Shown one piece after another: positions 3,991-31,604 of a stretch of 61,360 bases of DNA. The translations under genes were made by a program, and so were the position numbers. The notes beneath the pieces were generated by a model that was not told where the DNA came from, searched no databases, and saw nothing but the letters and a program-made list of their open reading frames with translations. Within the stretch, counting starts at the first letter, position 1. Each line of letters opens with the position of its first letter. The DNA comes from Salinisphaera sp. Q1T1-3 (GTDB lineage Bacteria > Pseudomonadota > Gammaproteobacteria > Nevskiales > Salinisphaeraceae), in the NCBI RefSeq assembly GCF_003602005.1, contig NZ_QZWD01000021.1, forward strand, positions 1-61,360, in the 5' to 3' direction.

Positions 3991-4494
3991 CCGACCACAA
4001 CCACCGCACCGCGCGCCATGCCATGTCGGGACATGCTGCGGAAACGCTCTGAACAACCACCTGCAGCTCGCGCTCGCCAACGACACGGCCAGATCGAATG
4101 CCTCGATCAAGGGCCGCCGAGCGCGGCATCCGCGCCAGATGTGGTGAACCCGGTATGACGCTGGCTGATCGTTCGGATGGAAAGCGCGCATACGAGCAGG
4201 CATGTGGCCACGACGGCTGAAGACCGCAACGCCATCGAAAATGGACGAAACACAGTTGGCCGCGTCGCAGACAGCCGATGGGGGCATCTGTTCTGGCCCC
4301 GGATGAATCCAGATCGGCCGGTCATATGCGGCAACGCAGTATTCGCGCTCTTGAGGCCGCCCCGGATCCGGCGCCGGAGACCACGCGTCGGCAGATCGCT
4401 TCCACGCCGGCACAGCGGGCCGACCACATCACGGCTTGGGCGCTCAGCAGGCCGACGCCCCGGGCCTCTCCCTTGTCCGCTCGTGTGTGTCGCG
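3991..4494. other. gene-poor interval
   Basis: About 500 bases lie between the lipoprotein and the YeeZ-like gene. Open frames occur on both strands, but their translations are Arg/Pro/Ser-rich and have no ribosome site or recognisable domain. One minus-strand frame ends with a hydrophobic stretch (ALRSSAVVATCLLVCALSI) but lacks any convincing start. I see no terminator hairpin with a T-run. It may be a decayed gene. Confidence 0.4.
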
Positions 4495-26380: not shown

Positions 26381-26437
26381 GTGTCCGGCGAACGCGTCTC
26401 GATCGCACCGGACATCGCCATGCGCGACACGGGCCTG

Positions 26438-26620
26438 TTATTAATCCGGCACCCAAACAGCTGACGACGTCAGCTGTTTTCAACGCCATCGAAAGAAACG
26501 CCGGCACTTGTCCGTCTTTTTATCTTCAATGGCTTCACGGCCGTTGGCCGTGGCGCGCGTGCTGTCGCACACGCGCGTTATCAACCCGAAAAATCATCTA
26601 TTTTTAGGCTGGGTCAATAA
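26438..26620 (+). repeat. 183-bp structured repeat with terminal inverted repeats, copy A
   Basis: It starts TTATTAATCCGGC and ends GCTGGGTCAATAA, imperfect inverted ends. Inside are four hairpins in series: AAACAGCTGAC with a 3-base loop and GTCAGCTGTTT (26455-26479); GCCAT...ATGGC closing a longer AT-rich arm; CACGGCC-GTT-GGCCGTG; and GCGCGTG...CACGCGC. About 90% identical to 31343-31527. It has no coding capacity. The layout suits a MITE-like mobile element or a structured RNA. Confidence 0.88.
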
Positions 26621-26636
26621 CACTTCGCCCGTGACG

Positions 26637-26722
26637 GCGTTGCCGCCCAGAAACCGGCCAGCCAAGGCGTATGGCGCCGGCCTTGGTTATTCCAGGGCCA
26701 AGCCAGTGTGGGCCGGCAACGC
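26637..26722 (+). repeat. short palindromic repeat, copy A
   Basis: The outer inverted ends GCGTTGCCG and CGGCAACGC enclose CCAAGGC...GCCTTGG. The central stretch (GGCGCCGGCCTTGGT) and flanks match 31224-31297. It lies 16 bases to the right of the 183-bp repeat. It is non-coding, although one minus-strand frame runs through it and yields similar peptide strings in both copies because the DNA is repeated. Confidence 0.75.
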
Positions 26723-26891
26723 GGGTGCCGCCTGGTCCGGCAGCCGACCGCATCCGCTGCCCGCGCCCAGGCCTCGCCCCACGGTGCCCGGCGTGCCGAT
26801 CAGCTCTCGCCTGCCATTGTCTGCATACAGCCTGGATATCGTCGACGCCCAGGCTTGAAAGTGTCAGCACACAGTTGTCGTTCATAAAAAA

Positions 26892-26909
26892 GGCCGCCCG
26901 GGGGCGGCC
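26892..26909. terminator. bidirectional terminator 3' of ProP-like gene
   Basis: GGCCGCC-CGGG-GGCGGCC, a perfect 7-bp stem, with TTTT on the right and five A on the left. It can therefore end transcription from both sides. It lies 27 bases beyond the stop of the minus-strand transporter gene. Confidence 0.88.
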
Positions 26910-26935
26910 TTTTCGCTGTCTACGTCCTATCTTGA

Positions 26936-28291
26936 TCAGGCCGCGGGTGCCGGCTCGCGGGCGGGACCACCCCGACCCGAGTACTGGGCCTTCGAGCCCG
27001 GTAGCGGACGCCGTGCGGTCTCCGGAATCAGCATGATCGGCACGAGCGCGACCGCGGCGGCGGCCATCAGATAGAAGGCCGGCACCATCTTGCTGCCGGT
27101 CTCGCCGATCAGCCACTGGATGAGATAAGGCGCGGTACCGCCGAACAGGGACGTGGAGATGTTGTAGGCGATCGCGAAGCCGCCATAGCGTACCCGGGTC
27201 GGAAAGATCGCCGGCAGCGTCGCCGGCATGGTTCCGGCCAGTGAAACCGTCAACAGCCCCAGGATCGCGAGCGCGACCACCACACCGGCGACTGTCGTCG
27301 TGCCCATCAGCCAGAACGCCGGATACGACAACAGAATGAACCCGATACAGGTCCCGATCAGCACCGGCTTGCGGCCGACCGTATCCGATAGCCCGCCGAA
27401 CAGGAAGATCACGCACATCATCACGATCATCGTGATGACAAGAAGACCGGTGGATTCGAGGGAACTCATGTTGAGAACTGACTCGAGATAGCTCGGCAGA
27501 TATGTCAGGACCGTGTAGTAGGCCACGTTGAGAATGATCACGAGTCCGATGCACAACAGCAGCTGCCGCATGTGACTGGTCACCACTTCGGCGAGCGAGC
27601 CGTCGGCCTCACCGGATTCCTTGACCTGCTCGAAGGCCGGACTGTCTTCCAGCTTCAAACGCAGGTACAGGCCGAACAGGCCGAGCGGCGCAGCGATCAG
27701 AAACGGAATACGCCAGCCCCAGTCGGCGAATGCCGCATCGCCCATCCCGAGCTGGGTGCCGAGCACCACGATCGCGCCCAGCGAATAGCCGGCGAGCGTG
27801 CCGAACTCGAGGAAGCTGGCCAGAAACCCGCGTCGATCGTCCGGCGAGTACTCGCAGATGAAGGTGGCCGCACCACCGTATTCACCGCCGGTCGAAAATC
27901 CCTGAACCAGACGCGCGGCGATCAGAAGAATGGGCGCCCAGAGACCGATGGTGGCGAAGCTCGGCAACAGACCGACCACGAAGGTGCCGGCCGACATCAT
28001 GATAATGGTGGTTGCCAGCACCTTGGAGCGGCCGATCTTGTCGCCGAGCGGACCGAAGAACAAGCCACCGAGCGGGCGCACGAGGAAGGCGACCGCGAAC
28101 ACCGCAAGCGCCGACAATAGCGACGCACTGTCGCTGTGTGAGGGGAAAAAGACCTTGCCGACCGTGCCGGCCATGTAGGCATACACGCTGAAATCGAACC
28201 ACTCCAGCGCATTGCCCATGCCGGCAGCGGTAACCGCTTTCTTAACGGCATCGGAATCGACAGTGAAACTGTCGTCGGTCGTCGTACTCAT
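26936..28291 (-). CDS. MHS-family MFS transporter, ProP-like osmoprotectant symporter
   Basis: This 451-residue, 12-helix carrier follows E. coli ProP closely along its length: AVTAAGMGNALEWFDFSVYAYMA near the start, FFGPLGDKIGRSKVLATTI (MFS signature between helices 2 and 3), GFSTGGEYGGAATFICEYSPD, and TLPAIFPTRVRYGGFAIAYN near 370. ProP imports betaine, proline or ectoine with protons under high salt. The C-terminal coiled coil that tunes osmotic response in E. coli ProP is missing here, as in many MHS relatives, so a dicarboxylate or other substrate stays possible. It stands alone and is divergent from osmC, another osmotically linked gene. Confidence 0.8.
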   Translation of the reverse strand: MSTTTDDSFTVDSDAVKKAVTAAGMGNALEWFDFSVYAYMAGTVGKVFFPSHSDSASLLSALAVFAVAFLVRPLGGLFFGPLGDKIGRSKVLATTIIMMSAGTFVVGLLPSFATIGLWAPILLIAARLVQGFSTGGEYGGAATFICEYSPDDRRGFLASFLEFGTLAGYSLGAIVVLGTQLGMGDAAFADWGWRIPFLIAAPLGLFGLYLRLKLEDSPAFEQVKESGEADGSLAEVVTSHMRQLLLCIGLVIILNVAYYTVLTYLPSYLESVLNMSSLESTGLLVITMIVMMCVIFLFGGLSDTVGRKPVLIGTCIGFILLSYPAFWLMGTTTVAGVVVALAILGLLTVSLAGTMPATLPAIFPTRVRYGGFAIAYNISTSLFGGTAPYLIQWLIGETGSKMVPAFYLMAAAAVALVPIMLIPETARRPLPGSKAQYSGRGGPAREPAPAA

Positions 28292-28389
28292 TGCCCTTCC
28301 CCCGGGGAGACCGGTAACGGATGTTGTTGCATGAACCTAGCACATTGTGTGCCGACACGATGCTTGTCAGCCCGTCTGCAGAGCCTTAT

Positions 28390-28407
28390 GTTGATTCGAT
28401 CATCAAC
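28390..28407. promoter_or_regulatory. inverted repeat upstream of osmC-like gene
   Basis: GTTGAT-N6-ATCAAC, 17 bases before the OsmC start. Its symmetry and position suggest a repressor or activator site. It does not match the OhrR or OxyR consensus known to me. Confidence 0.3.
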
Positions 28408-28424
28408 TCAATCGGGAGCGATCA

Positions 28425-28850
28425 ATGCCCGTACGCAAGGCGAATGCGCAGTGGCAGGGTGATCTGAAGTCCGGCAAGGGCGACATGAAGCTCGAGAGCG
28501 GGGCCTATCAGGGTCAGTTCTCTTTCAAGACGCGTTTCGAGGAAGGCACGGGCACCAACCCGGAAGAACTGATCGGCGCGGCCCATGCCGGCTGTTTCTC
28601 GATGCAGTTCTCGGCCATGCTGGCCGAGGAAGGCCATGCACCGGATTCGGTGAAGACCGAAGCCAAGGTGCATTTCTCCGTGGACGGCACACCCACGATC
28701 GAGAAGATCGAACTGATCACGCGTGGCGTGGTCCCGGGCATGGACGATGCCCAGTTCAAGGAAATCGCCGGCAAGGCCAAGGATGCCTGTCCGGTATCCC
28801 GTCTCTACAAGGGCGCCGACATCGTCCTGGACGCCGCACTCGAGGGCTGA
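28425..28850 (+). CDS. osmC: OsmC-family peroxiredoxin
   Basis: The 141-residue thiol peroxidase reduces organic hydroperoxides. The two redox cysteines are Cys57 in LIGAAHAGCFSM and Cys122 in KDACPVSRL, with the supporting Arg37 and Glu48. The LIGAAHAGCFSM context and full-length match place it in the OsmC rather than the Ohr subgroup. Expression in OsmC systems rises with osmotic and stationary stress. A terminator follows 21 bases later, so it is monocistronic. An OhrR-like regulator is found 8.8 kb away. Confidence 0.92.
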   Translation: MPVRKANAQWQGDLKSGKGDMKLESGAYQGQFSFKTRFEEGTGTNPEELIGAAHAGCFSMQFSAMLAEEGHAPDSVKTEAKVHFSVDGTPTIEKIELITRGVVPGMDDAQFKEIAGKAKDACPVSRLYKGADIVLDAALEG

Positions 28851-28871
28851 CCCGACGCCGCGTCACGAACC

Positions 28872-28901
28872 GACAGAGCCGGGGCATGCCTCGGCTCTGT
28901 C
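28872..28901 (+). terminator. terminator of the osmC-like gene
   Basis: GACAGAGCCG / CGGCTCTGTC, a 10-bp perfect outer stem with an internal GGGCATGCCT, followed by GTTTTC. The T-run is short. Confidence 0.75.
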
Positions 28902-29018
28902 GTTTTCAGCCCCGATTCGGGGGCTTTCGCCATCGATTGCAACGATTGCCATTGACTTTGCGATGATCGTCTCAAGGTTTAACGGCTCACAAACGCAAAA
29001 CGTTGCAAAGAGGCCAAC

Positions 29019-29501
29019 ATGCAAGCCCAGCGCGATAACGTCGTCAGCATCCATTACGTCCTGCGCGACAACGACGGCGAGGTCATCGACCAGTCGGCTG
29101 AAGGTCAGCCGCTTTCCTACCTGCACGGCCACGACAACATCGTGCCGGGTCTGGAAAAGGCCATCGAAGGCCACGATGAAGGCGCCGAGGTCCAGACGAC
29201 CGTCGAACCCGAGGAAGGCTACGGCCCCTATCGGGAAGAGCTCGTGCAGAAGGTCAACCGGGAAGCCTTCCAGGGCGTCGACGAGCTGGCGCCGGGCATG
29301 AGCTTCCGGGCCGAGTCCGATGCCGGGCCCATGATCGTGACCATCAAGGAAGTCGATGGCGACGAAGTCACGGTTGACGGCAACCACGTGCTCGCAGGCC
29401 AGACACTGAACTTCACGGTGAACATCGCCGGCGTGCGCGAAGCCAGCGCCACGGAACTCGAGCACGGCCACGTGCACGACGAGAACACCGACCACGGCTG
29501 A
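29019..29501 (+). CDS. slyD: SlyD-like FKBP-type peptidyl-prolyl isomerase
   Basis: The 160-residue protein starts MQAQRDNVVSIHYVLRDNDGEVIDQS. The split FKBP domain reads LSYLHGHDNIVPGLEKAIEGHDEG, then the IF (insert-in-flap) chaperone domain from PEEGYGPYREELVQKV to GNHVLAGQTLNFTVNI, the SlyD pattern. The C-terminal tail holds several His (EHGHVHDENTDHG) but is much shorter than the nickel-binding tail of E. coli SlyD. It helps folding of cytoplasmic proteins and may deliver metal. It is followed by a hairpin region and terminator. Confidence 0.9.
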   Translation: MQAQRDNVVSIHYVLRDNDGEVIDQSAEGQPLSYLHGHDNIVPGLEKAIEGHDEGAEVQTTVEPEEGYGPYREELVQKVNREAFQGVDELAPGMSFRAESDAGPMIVTIKEVDGDEVTVDGNHVLAGQTLNFTVNIAGVREASATELEHGHVHDENTDHG

Positions 29502-29519
29502 TTTCGGTCACCCTGCCGG

Positions 29520-29684
29520 GTGACACGACGCGCGCCGGGCGTGCGTCAGGCGATACAAGCTGTGGGCTAATGGCGGGCGCCAAGGCGCACCGTCGTGGCC
29601 TCTGTCGCGCCGGTAACCACGTGCCGGCGCGGCATCGCTACTGATGTCATCGCATCCGGGCCGCCCTGTCGGGGCGGCTTTTTT
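29520..29684 (+). ncRNA. candidate small RNA or structured 3' UTR after slyD-like gene
   Basis: An intergenic stretch without a credible frame contains CGCGCCGG...CCGGCGCG (8-bp perfect stem, 29607-29632) and a strong terminator at 29660-29684. A weak promoter-like pair, GCGTCA and GCTAAT with a 17-base spacer, lies near 29542-29571. It may equally be the processed 3' end of the slyD transcript. Confidence 0.25.
29660..29684 (+). terminator. Rho-independent terminator
   Basis: GCCGCCC / GGGCGGC, 7-bp perfect stem with 5-base loop and then six T. It ends the slyD-like transcript or a separate small RNA. It lies 40 bases before the convergent SEL1 gene stop. Confidence 0.92.
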
Positions 29685-29723
29685 GTGCCCGATCACCCCA
29701 TACGTCGCGAGGTGCCGACGTGT

Positions 29724-30965
29724 CTACTCGCCGACCAGAAGATAAGCCGCAAGCCAGCCTTTTCGGTTATCAGCGGTCTGCACACGTGCCCAGCCATTCT
29801 TCGTCTCTTCGACGGTCACGACATCGTTTCGGTGAACCTGGCCAACCACCTTGCCGGCACGGCTCGGCCGTGAACGCAGATTGACGGTGCCCGCCCCCAC
29901 GCGACGCTTGACCGACTTCGCGGCCGCGCCCTCATCCGAGCCGCCGGCGGTTGCCGTGGGCTGTTTCGAAACGGTCGCCGCGCCTGGCTTCTCGTTGTCC
30001 GCAGGCTCCGGTTTCGTTCCCGGCGACGTCTTATCCGCGGCGGCGGCCGAATCCGCGGCGGCAGCCGCAACCTTGGCCCCCGATCCGCTCTCCGTCGCTG
30101 AGCGCCTCACCGGGTCGTCATCGCGCGGCGAAGGCGCAGCCGCCTGCTTCGGGCGTGGCGCGGATTCCGTCGGCGCCCCACGCTCCGGCGATGTCGCCAT
30201 GCGACTGTCGTCATCGCCGCCGCCGGCCAACGGGGCGAGGCTGTCGGCGAGCAGGAAATTGGCCACCCAGCCGATCTCGTAGGTCTTCGGGAACAGGACC
30301 TGTGTCCAATCGGCCTCGCGGGCCAGCACCACGACAACGCTGTCACTGTCGGCCTGACGCACGATACGGGCGTTACGATCCGGCTGGTCGCGTACATTTA
30401 CGTCGTCGGCATTGACGTGTCGCTGCGGTAGATCCTCGACGATACGTGGCAGATTATCGATAGCCGCGCCGTTGCCCGCCGCAGCGGCGCGCGCGGTCCA
30501 GAAAGCCGCCTTGCCGGTATTCTGCGGGACCCCGTGCCCTTTCATGTAGAGCACCCCGAGATTGTTCTCCGAGGCTGCCTGCCCGTCCCCGGCGCCGCGC
30601 CGAAACCATTGCGCTGCCTTGACGAGATTCTTGTCCACGCCCTTGCCGGCCTCGTACATGATGCCGAGGTTGTGTTCGGCCCGACCGTAGTGTTGTGCCG
30701 CGGCTTTCTCGTACCAGCCCCGAGCGGTCGCATAATTCTGGGCGACGCCGATGCCACGGTCATACAGCACGCCCATATTGTACTGTGCCGCCGCATCGCC
30801 GCTTTCAGCACGCGGGCGCGTGTCCTCGAGCACCTTCGCGGCCTGTGCCGGCGCCATGGCGTCGGTCTCCGCGTCCGTCGACGATTGCTGTTGCTGTGCC
30901 AGCGCGCCGAGCGGCGTGCAGCAAACGACGGTGGCGAACAGCCAGACAACGGACCTGCGCGTCAT
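29724..30965 (-). CDS. secreted SEL1-repeat protein with two SH3-type domains
   Basis: The 413-residue protein starts MTRRSVVWLFATVVCCTPLG, a cleavable signal peptide ending near ALAQ. AAGGA lies five bases upstream of this ATG, favouring it over one six codons earlier. Three SEL1/TPR-like repeats follow (AAAQYNMGVLYDRGIGVAQN, RAEHNLGIMYEAGKGVDKN, ASENNLGVLYMKGHGVPQN). Next is a bacterial SH3-like domain (DDVNVRDQPDRNARIVRQ), a Pro/Ala/Asp-rich linker and a second SH3 domain at the end (GTVNLRSRPSRAGKVVGQV...GWLAAYLLV). SH3b domains usually bind peptidoglycan, so a periplasmic scaffold near the wall is likely. It stands alone and is convergent with slyD. Confidence 0.82.
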   Translation of the reverse strand: MTRRSVVWLFATVVCCTPLGALAQQQQSSTDAETDAMAPAQAAKVLEDTRPRAESGDAAAQYNMGVLYDRGIGVAQNYATARGWYEKAAAQHYGRAEHNLGIMYEAGKGVDKNLVKAAQWFRRGAGDGQAASENNLGVLYMKGHGVPQNTGKAAFWTARAAAAGNGAAIDNLPRIVEDLPQRHVNADDVNVRDQPDRNARIVRQADSDSVVVVLAREADWTQVLFPKTYEIGWVANFLLADSLAPLAGGGDDDSRMATSPERGAPTESAPRPKQAAAPSPRDDDPVRRSATESGSGAKVAAAAADSAAAADKTSPGTKPEPADNEKPGAATVSKQPTATAGGSDEGAAAKSVKRRVGAGTVNLRSRPSRAGKVVGQVHRNDVVTVEETKNGWARVQTADNRKGWLAAYLLVGE

Positions 30966-31223
30966 GTTGATCCTTGATGACAAAGCGGAATAGGCAGCAT
31001 CGCTACGTTAAACCCGACGCCGCTCGAACGCGAGCCCTGACCCGGCGGCATGACGGCATCGATCCTCCGGAGAGGCCAATAGTCCAGAGCCTGTTAACAC
31101 GTCCCGCGTGCGCCGCGCCGGCGATCTTTTTTTGAAAGACAAGGCATCGGGCGCATACGGCCGTCATTCTGGCGTCGCGAACGACAACGCCGGATTGCGC
31201 AAAAAATGACCGCCGTCCCGTCA

Positions 31224-31297
31224 GGTTGCGCCCCAAAACCGACCAGGCAAGGCGCATCGCGCCGGCCTTGGTCATGCCAAGATCAAACCGTGCAACC
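31224..31297 (+). repeat. short palindromic repeat, copy B
   Basis: GGTTGC...GCAACC closes a core matching 26637-26722 (AAACCG-CCAG-CAAGGCG, then GCGCCGGCCTTGGT). It lies 45 bases to the left of the second 183-bp repeat, whereas copy A lies to the right of the first. The outer stem differs from copy A, but base pairing is kept. Confidence 0.72.
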
Positions 31298-31342
31298 CCG
31301 CATGGCCGGTTTTCGGGCGGCAACGCGATCACGTGTGAAGTA

Positions 31343-31527
31343 TTATTAATCCGGCACCAAAACAGCTGACGACGTCAGCTGTTTTCAACGCCATCGAAAA
31401 ATAAAAGCCGGCACTTGTCCGTCTTTTTATTTTCAATGGCTTCACGGCCGTTGGCCGTGGCGCGCGTGCTTTCGCACACGCGCGTCATCAACCCGAAAAA
31501 TCATCTATTCTTATGCCGGGTTAATAA
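31343..31527 (+). repeat. 185-bp structured repeat with terminal inverted repeats, copy B
   Basis: TTATTAATCCGGCA at the left and TGCCGGGTTAATAA at the right are inverted with one mismatch in 14. The internal order of hairpins is the same as copy A. The second arm is here an almost perfect AT stem (GCCAT-GAAAA..TAAAAG with CTTTTTATTTTCAATGGC). The differences from copy A fall mostly in loops. There is no clear target duplication. It lies 78 bases upstream of the promoter of the outer-membrane channel gene. Confidence 0.9.
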
Positions 31528-31604
31528 AAGGCCTTAAGGTTGCACGGCCCCGCCGATACCGCCGAGGCAGTCCGGGCCGATCTCGGGCGCCAAATTATAT
31601 GCAA

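Follow-up and report, generated by a model that had tools for sequence, protein, structure and literature searches.

A TA-flanked, hairpin-rich repeat of Salinisphaera that is probably a MITE, often nested in a second repeat family

What is the hairpin-rich repeat that occurs twice in a 61,360-nucleotide stretch of the Salinisphaera sp. Q1T1-3 genome (contig NZ_QZWD01000021.1; hereafter the window), and does its fold serve a purpose in the copies that carry it? An initial annotation had described two repeats with inverted ends and four shared hairpins, and left open whether they were a non-autonomous mobile element or a structured RNA family; divergence that seemed to fall mainly in loops was taken to favor selection on structure. 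The two repeats are present (copies A and B, Table 1) and are 94% identical by BLAST. Both carry inverted ends, the right end of copy A being less regular (GGCTGGGTCAATAA), and folding copy B gave the four hairpins, with its two ends paired into a stem around them. This fold has an energy of −82.8 kcal/mol, compared with a mean of −43.95 kcal/mol (sd 4.02) for 200 shuffled sequences (z = −9.66). The loop-centered divergence did not hold up: seven of the 12 positions that differ between A and B lie in stems and five in loops (two of the five being gap positions), and since stems take up 120 of the 185 positions (120:65 stem to loop), a 7:5 split is about what chance gives. A compensatory change, A-T in copy B against G-C in copy A, was also lost in the fixed register of the aligned copies, where copy A has a G58-T88 wobble and an A57-C89 mismatch, and copy B has A-T at both.

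Between their flanking TAs, the two window copies measure 177–179 bp, which leaves no room for a transposase gene; the sole listed open reading frame of at least 100 aa that starts inside the element (26508–26858) extends beyond it. A search of the window against Rfam gave no match at gathering score; the best sub-threshold match (E = 0.068) lay around copy B. One terminator-like site was found on the minus strand in the copy B stretch (0.9 expected by chance) and none within copy A, and the single promoter-like site found in the scan falls outside the element. We also noted a weak, decayed relative of the element on the minus strand of the window at 4142–4310 (29.8 bits, E = 2.5e-7).

Table 1. 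Features of the two window copies and of the second repeat family (MITE-2) that houses them.
Feature	Position in window	Strand	Remark
Copy A, including flanking T-TA / TA-A	26438–26620	+	covariance model 201.5 bits
Copy A, element proper	26441–26617		177 bp
Copy A, left target-site duplication, TA	26439–26440		putative, from TA pattern across copies
Copy A, right target-site duplication, TA	26618–26619		putative, from TA pattern across copies
Copy A, hairpins 1–4, same order	26454–26576		copy B structure carried over by alignment
Copy B, including flanking T-TA / TA-A	31343–31527	+	covariance model 215.6 bits
Copy B, element proper	31346–31524		179 bp
Copy B, left target-site duplication, TA	31344–31345		putative, from TA pattern across copies
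Copy B, right target-site duplication, TA	31525–31526		putative, from TA pattern across copies
Copy B, left terminal inverted repeat	31346–31369	+	TTAATCCGGCACCAAAACAGCTGA
Copy B, right terminal inverted repeat	31501–31524	-	TTAACCCGGCATAAGAATAGATGA (minus-strand reading)
Copy B, hairpin 1	31359–31385		palindrome with 1- to 3-base center
Copy B, hairpin 2	31390–31440		
Copy B, hairpin 3	31443–31459		
Copy B, hairpin 4	31460–31483		
MITE-2, split near right end by copy B	31087–31534		left arm match 31088–31105; ends approximate, by eye
MITE-2 part, split in left arm by copy A	26431–26704		end approximate
Left arm pieces of the MITE-2 split by copy A	26431–26437; from 26621		GGGCCTG; CACTTCGC

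The initial proposal depended on the existence of further copies, and dozens were found in the host genome, a draft assembly of 59 contigs (G000). A BLAST search returned 106 candidates, 40 of which were scored, and all 40 were near-full copies. The end motif TTATTAAYCCGGC, allowing at most one mismatch, occurred 58 + 64 times, compared with 0 + 1 for a reversed control. Of these 122 places 100 were listed, and 61 stretches were taken from the genome, from which we recovered 56 near-full copies, the window's two included; truncated or interrupted copies were excluded from all counts on this set. A covariance model built on 40 hand-chosen sequences out of 113 copies gave 115 matches at E ≤ 0.001 among the best 150 of 3347 candidates, although part of them are probably antisense matches on hairpin 1 or the ends, as in the window. 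At least 60 of the matches listed score 166 bits or more, on many contigs, and four at that level are absent from the 56-copy set (C58:87530, C43:7752, C54:22524 and C59:18219). A further stretch of the host genome (L041, contig C8) has two element-like ends near a contig end, which could belong to a longer relative cut by the assembly.

An exact TA is present at both ends of 50 of the 56 copies, and six copies are without it at one or both ends. The 18 copies that lie away from MITE-2 (described below) have TA on both sides in every case (18/18), in flanks that are unrelated to one another. The base outward of the TA in these free copies is T (8), C (6) or A (4) on the left, and A (16) or G (2) on the right. 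In another Salinisphaera genome, G007, most of 19 copies are likewise bordered by TA on each side, the preceding base being C or T. We therefore read the element as a MITE moved by a transposase, the IS630-type partner being inferred, and give this reading a probability of roughly 0.87. The element would be a small DNA transposon without genes of its own, mobilized in trans by a transposase that recognizes its inverted ends (TTAAYCCGGCAYMAAAAYAGMTGA). Insertion would take place at TA and duplicate it, the transposase would be a member of the IS630 (Tc1/mariner-type) family, and copies once resident would decay much like neutral DNA. Source-element lineages would have retained the internal hairpins, whether through a benefit of folded or palindromic DNA to transposition or through mutual correction of the palindrome arms.

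The assignment of the mobilizing transposase to the IS630 (Tc1/mariner-type) family is suggested by the TA target together with the ends of a congener's IS630, which start YTAATCCG / YTAACCCG. The ends of the hairpin element are TA-TTAATCCGGC and TA-TTAACCCGGC (TA-TTAAYCCG), left and right differing. G007 carries five near-identical copies of an IS630 element with ends TA-CTAATCCGTTC and TA-CTAACCCGTTC (TA-CTAAYCCG) and a transposase that scores 254.1 bits against NCBIfam IS630; in this genome, an IS630 with an open 351-aa frame sits within a copy of the hairpin element (L088, 800–2300). TAATCCG and TAACCCG are common to the two elements in register and with the same left-right difference, the agreement extending about 7–8 bases beyond the TA before the ends diverge. 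Ends beginning TA-CTAACC were also found in IS885 of Cupriavidus and in an element of genome G045. A simple end-finder detected no such end at the transposase relatives in Azotobacter, ISAzo32, Rhodococcus, G035 and G015.

The TA target expected of an IS630 passenger is in place in the host genome; an IS630 transposase was not matched in the same genome. PF13358 had no match there among four candidates, and neither did the IS630 transposase of G007 match the host genome. Five of the 14 genus genomes have PF13358 matches (G001, G007, G011, G012 and G013), and among these only G007 has an element with ends related to those of the hairpin element. No autonomous partner carrying the complete 24-bp end turned up in 14 transposase loci, five of them the same G007 element, that were scanned with TATTAAYCCGGCA at up to three substitutions. 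With at most one substitution, this sequence was found only at the two ends of the MITE that houses the L088 insert. The shorter motif TAYTAAYCCG (at most one mismatch) was scanned in 30 loci, one of which is the G007 element again, and matched exactly on both strands only in the G007 element; single one-mismatch matches were seen in L207, L218, L219, L220 and L222. Since no matching transposase was found in the host and its 56 copies differ from their consensus by a mean of 6.5 substitutions, the family is probably inactive there.

Twelve of the 13 other Salinisphaera genomes have at least one match to the covariance model. The numbers of matches, possible antisense matches included, are 53 (G006), 48 (G007), 31 (G002), 13 (G005), 11 (G011), 8 (G012), 7 (G004), 5 (G009), 3 (G008), 2 (G010), 1 each (G001 and G003) and 0 (G013). 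Spread beyond the genus was rejected: outside it we found only matches of 24–37 bases in four genomes, which we judged to be chance (one in a set of 61 genomes that includes the host and the 13 genus genomes, and three in a set of 369 that includes the host and some genus genomes, with two candidates scored per genome). The element had no match among 72,556 plasmid records or 50,697 phage records, and one exact pattern had none in viral contigs; records very near the host genome may be missing from these collections. Among six records of relatives of a protein encoded beside copy B, five are from Salinisphaera (japonica, hydrothermalis, shabanensis and two without a species name), and the sixth is from a metagenome bin filed as Lysobacterales.

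Next, we consider whether the hairpins are under constraint in the copies where they now reside. Private substitutions within a genome were taken as mutations that arose after insertion. Among the 75 private substitutions of the 56 host copies, 48 hit stems (47.8 expected under random placement, sd 4.0) and 31 broke a pair (30.6 expected, sd 3.2); in the inner hairpins alone, 20 breaks compared with 23.7 expected (P = 0.18). Rates per site varied among the helices: 0.46 for the ends and 0.25, 0.26, 0.61 and 0.56 for hairpins 1 to 4, respectively, with 0.42 for loops. Pair breaks numbered 25 vs. 27.9 at random in G007 (19 copies), 89 vs. 91.5 in G006 (17 copies) and 57 vs. 62.6 in G002 (8 copies), all three slightly toward fewer breaks than random, and stem hits in G002 were 67 vs. 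75.5 (P = 0.04). Resident copies seem to be under no clear constraint on pairing, and decay much like neutral DNA.

By contrast, the pairing is well kept between genomes. In an alignment of 40 sequences made without structure, 89.3% of cells were paired, a share that is favored by taking the structure from copy B, compared with 37.3–43.1% with slid partners. Cells changed on both sides numbered 95, vs. 40.3 in shuffled and 24–49 in slid versions, all cell counts being inflated by shared ancestry, and the covariation score was 0.176, vs. 0.122 shuffled and 0.059–0.072 slid. These observed values were reached by 0–3 of 500 shuffles. Pairs with any both-sided change, however, numbered 21, which does not exceed the count in the slid versions (14–22). 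At the level of genome consensus, both-sided changes numbered 4 in G007, 2 in G002, 5 in G011 (3 copies) and 0 in G006, and broken pairs 2, 6, 5 and 1, respectively. The tests within and between genomes thus diverged: covariation between species is real, but it fits upkeep in lineages that spread, and no clear constraint on pairing was seen within genomes. In short, the fold was retained in elements that continued to spread, and copies at rest do not clearly retain it. Taken by itself, the covariation would point to a functional RNA, whereas decay within genomes gives no sign of constraint on the copies; a two-level test of this kind, between-species covariation together with within-genome decay, could serve for other dispersed structured repeats.

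Why, then, would the fold be kept in spreading lineages? One possible answer, which we hold tentatively, is that the hairpins are part of the mobility mechanism, as folded or cruciform DNA or as an RNA of the source copy acting in cis, so that selection would act only at transposition. Covariation between lineages combined with pairing-blind decay within genomes is in keeping with this. Mispairs at the level of the genome consensus in the inner hairpins of four genomes (1 G-T and 7 A-C, one A-C site occurring in two) would give a weak hint of a minus-strand RNA, but they are too few to weigh, and mispairs at the level of cells have no strand bias. Counted once per genome and pair, the latter are 64 G-T and 62 A-C, many of them probably late decay, which would even out the two kinds. 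The same covariation could, moreover, arise without selection if template switching corrected the arms. That transposition makes use of the four hairpins, such that only elements with a fold-keeping source copy spread, seems to us rather unlikely. If true, it would make this an IS630-type MITE whose structural needs extend beyond its ends, under selection at movement and under none in resident copies. We know of no need of an IS630 transposase for internal hairpins, so the basic mechanism leaves their covariation unexplained.

The other doubtful but possible answer is that the covariation is due to mutation alone, template switching within palindromes matching one arm to the other, and that the hairpins have no role. 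Hairpins 1, 3 and 4 are indeed palindromes with loops of 3–4 bases, and G-T and A-C mispairs are equally numerous, which fits a process indifferent to the strand. However, the host copies have no excess of pair-preserving states, and any arm correction must therefore act slowly or only in source copies. Both-sided changes also affect 10 of the 19 pairs in hairpin 2, whose stem is long and interrupted, several of them supported by one sequence.

Much less probable is that the repeats form a family of structured RNAs, either cis-regulatory elements or small RNAs, with selection on the fold of every copy. The strong fold of copy B, the genus-wide covariation of paired and both-sided cells, and the deficit of stem substitutions in G002 speak for it. 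Nevertheless, a regulatory RNA in every copy is disfavored because it predicts the opposite of a fold kept in spreaders and not clearly kept at rest: private mutations break pairs at about the random rate in all four genomes (G000, G007, G006 and G002), and G-T mispairs in the inner hairpins are about as frequent as A-C. Of the hallmarks of such an RNA, covariation between lineages was found but is not RNA-specific; constraint in resident copies and an Rfam family were not found, and relatives have the conserved neighboring genes without the element (see below). Selection on structure, as initially favored, is therefore unsupported for resident copies, given random break rates, the stem differences between A and B and the lack of an Rfam match at gathering score in the window.

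Returning to the MITE reading, 38 of the 56 host copies are inserted at one and the same point, the TTAA of an arm of MITE-2, a second dispersed repeat family (seen in the window and at L237–L246) with arms GGGCCTGTTAACAC and internal length variants. Both arm parts were recognized for 34 of these copies and only the outer part for the other four. The empty arm GGCCTGTTAACACNTCGC, with at most three mismatches, occurred 83 times, compared with 11 in controls. The MITE-2 arms are a strong hot spot for the element in the host genome, because about one-third of them are filled, compared with 18 filled sites among the roughly 63,000 TAs that extrapolation from the window gives for the rest of the genome. 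Ten MITE-2 units were recovered with both arms (155–277 bp). Their left flank is TA in four and CA in four, and their right flank TA in seven, with TA on both sides in two of the ten, so that MITE-2 likely makes a TA duplication of its own, though not a clean one. That the element spread only as a passenger of MITE-2 and never on its own is scarcely credible despite the many arm-borne copies, as the 18 without an arm already refute it as the sole route, and since the element lies in either orientation to the arm (15 vs. 19) and most of the 19 G007 copies, by eye, have no MITE-2 arm beside them (L134 perhaps excepted). In G012, an arm-like AGGCCCTAG was seen by eye on one side of an element copy (L167).

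We also inspected the same loci in relatives. Both genes that neighbor copy A are present in five relatives (L104, L106, L107, L108 and L110), and both that neighbor copy B in five loci (L120, L121, L192, L195 and L196), of which L121 and L192 seem to come from one species; in the remaining loci only one of the two genes matched. The covariance model found no element between the neighboring genes where both are present; its sole match in all 23 relatives' loci, several of them from the same species, lies outside the intergenic stretch (L192, 7328–7458). The flanking genes are only ~65–83% identical in relatives, and therefore the absence of the element is seen at the level of genes and not as base-exact orthologous empty sites. 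The expected empty sites were thus found in part, as paralogous ones in the MITE-2 arms and as gene-level absence in relatives. With dozens of copies, TA on both sides, paralogous empty sites and absence in relatives, the mobile-element half of the initial annotation has good support. As in bacterial MITEs, the element is multicopy and dispersed, is shorter than 200 bp, has no gene, and has terminal inverted repeats and a TA duplication seen through paralogous sites.

We found no description of this family in the Salinisphaera literature on miniature inverted-repeat or insertion sequences, nor in the wider literature searched. Judged from that literature and from descriptions of known families, the element is of an established type, of which it represents a new family; to the known MITEs it contributes one whose insertion signature is clear and whose copies are nested in a second repeat family. 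Two of its traits are less usual, namely that many copies are nested at a single point of another repeat and that the internal hairpins are separate and covary. Its features fit a class of folded sequences of less than 200 bp with inverted ends, TA termini and a duplication, as this class is set out in PMC2229807. By analogy, the nearest known system in mechanism is RUP of Streptococcus pneumoniae, a proposed passenger of IS630-Spn1 (PMC3049150). By the description in PMC2229807, RUP is likewise small, with TA termini and a duplication, IS630-like ends and ends that are paired in the fold. A preference of RUP for insertion into or near IS elements has been proposed (PMC2229807, PMC3049150). 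RUP is 107 bp, however, as against 177–179 bp, and its IS630 is common in its host, whereas none was matched in G000. Going by the same descriptions, four separate covarying hairpins are a feature of the element and not of RUP. Correia/NEMIS elements of Neisseria are described as sharing TA termini and a duplication, 24-bp inverted ends, folding and multicopy occurrence (PMC2229807), but they belong to a different genus, in which they are reported to carry an IHF site and putative promoters. IS630-family insertion sequences encode a transposase, unlike the element, and the ends of those compared (TA-CTAATCCG / TA-CTAACCCG in G007, TA-CTAACC in IS885 and G045) resemble the TA-TTAAYCC of the element, which diverges after about 8 bases. 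ERIC/IRU elements of enterobacteria form one long fold. As described in PMC2229807, they share TA termini and a duplication, dispersal and folding with the element, but their paired ends are 7 bp.

A third repeat of ~275 bp (ends GGAACCTCTGATCTATTCATCCACGG) was noted at L027:1043–1315 and L047:1295–1567, and also at the edge of L050. Its copies in L027 and L047 are 98% identical, and each interrupts a copy of the element at an identical point. We rejected this shared insert as proof that a loaded element had moved, because the left half of each of the two element copies is nearer to some insert-free copies than to the other. Lastly, an element copy on the minus strand of L067 (1209–1391) has an ATG in its right flank that begins 8 bases after the end of the copy, and some element copies may affect translation starts in this way.
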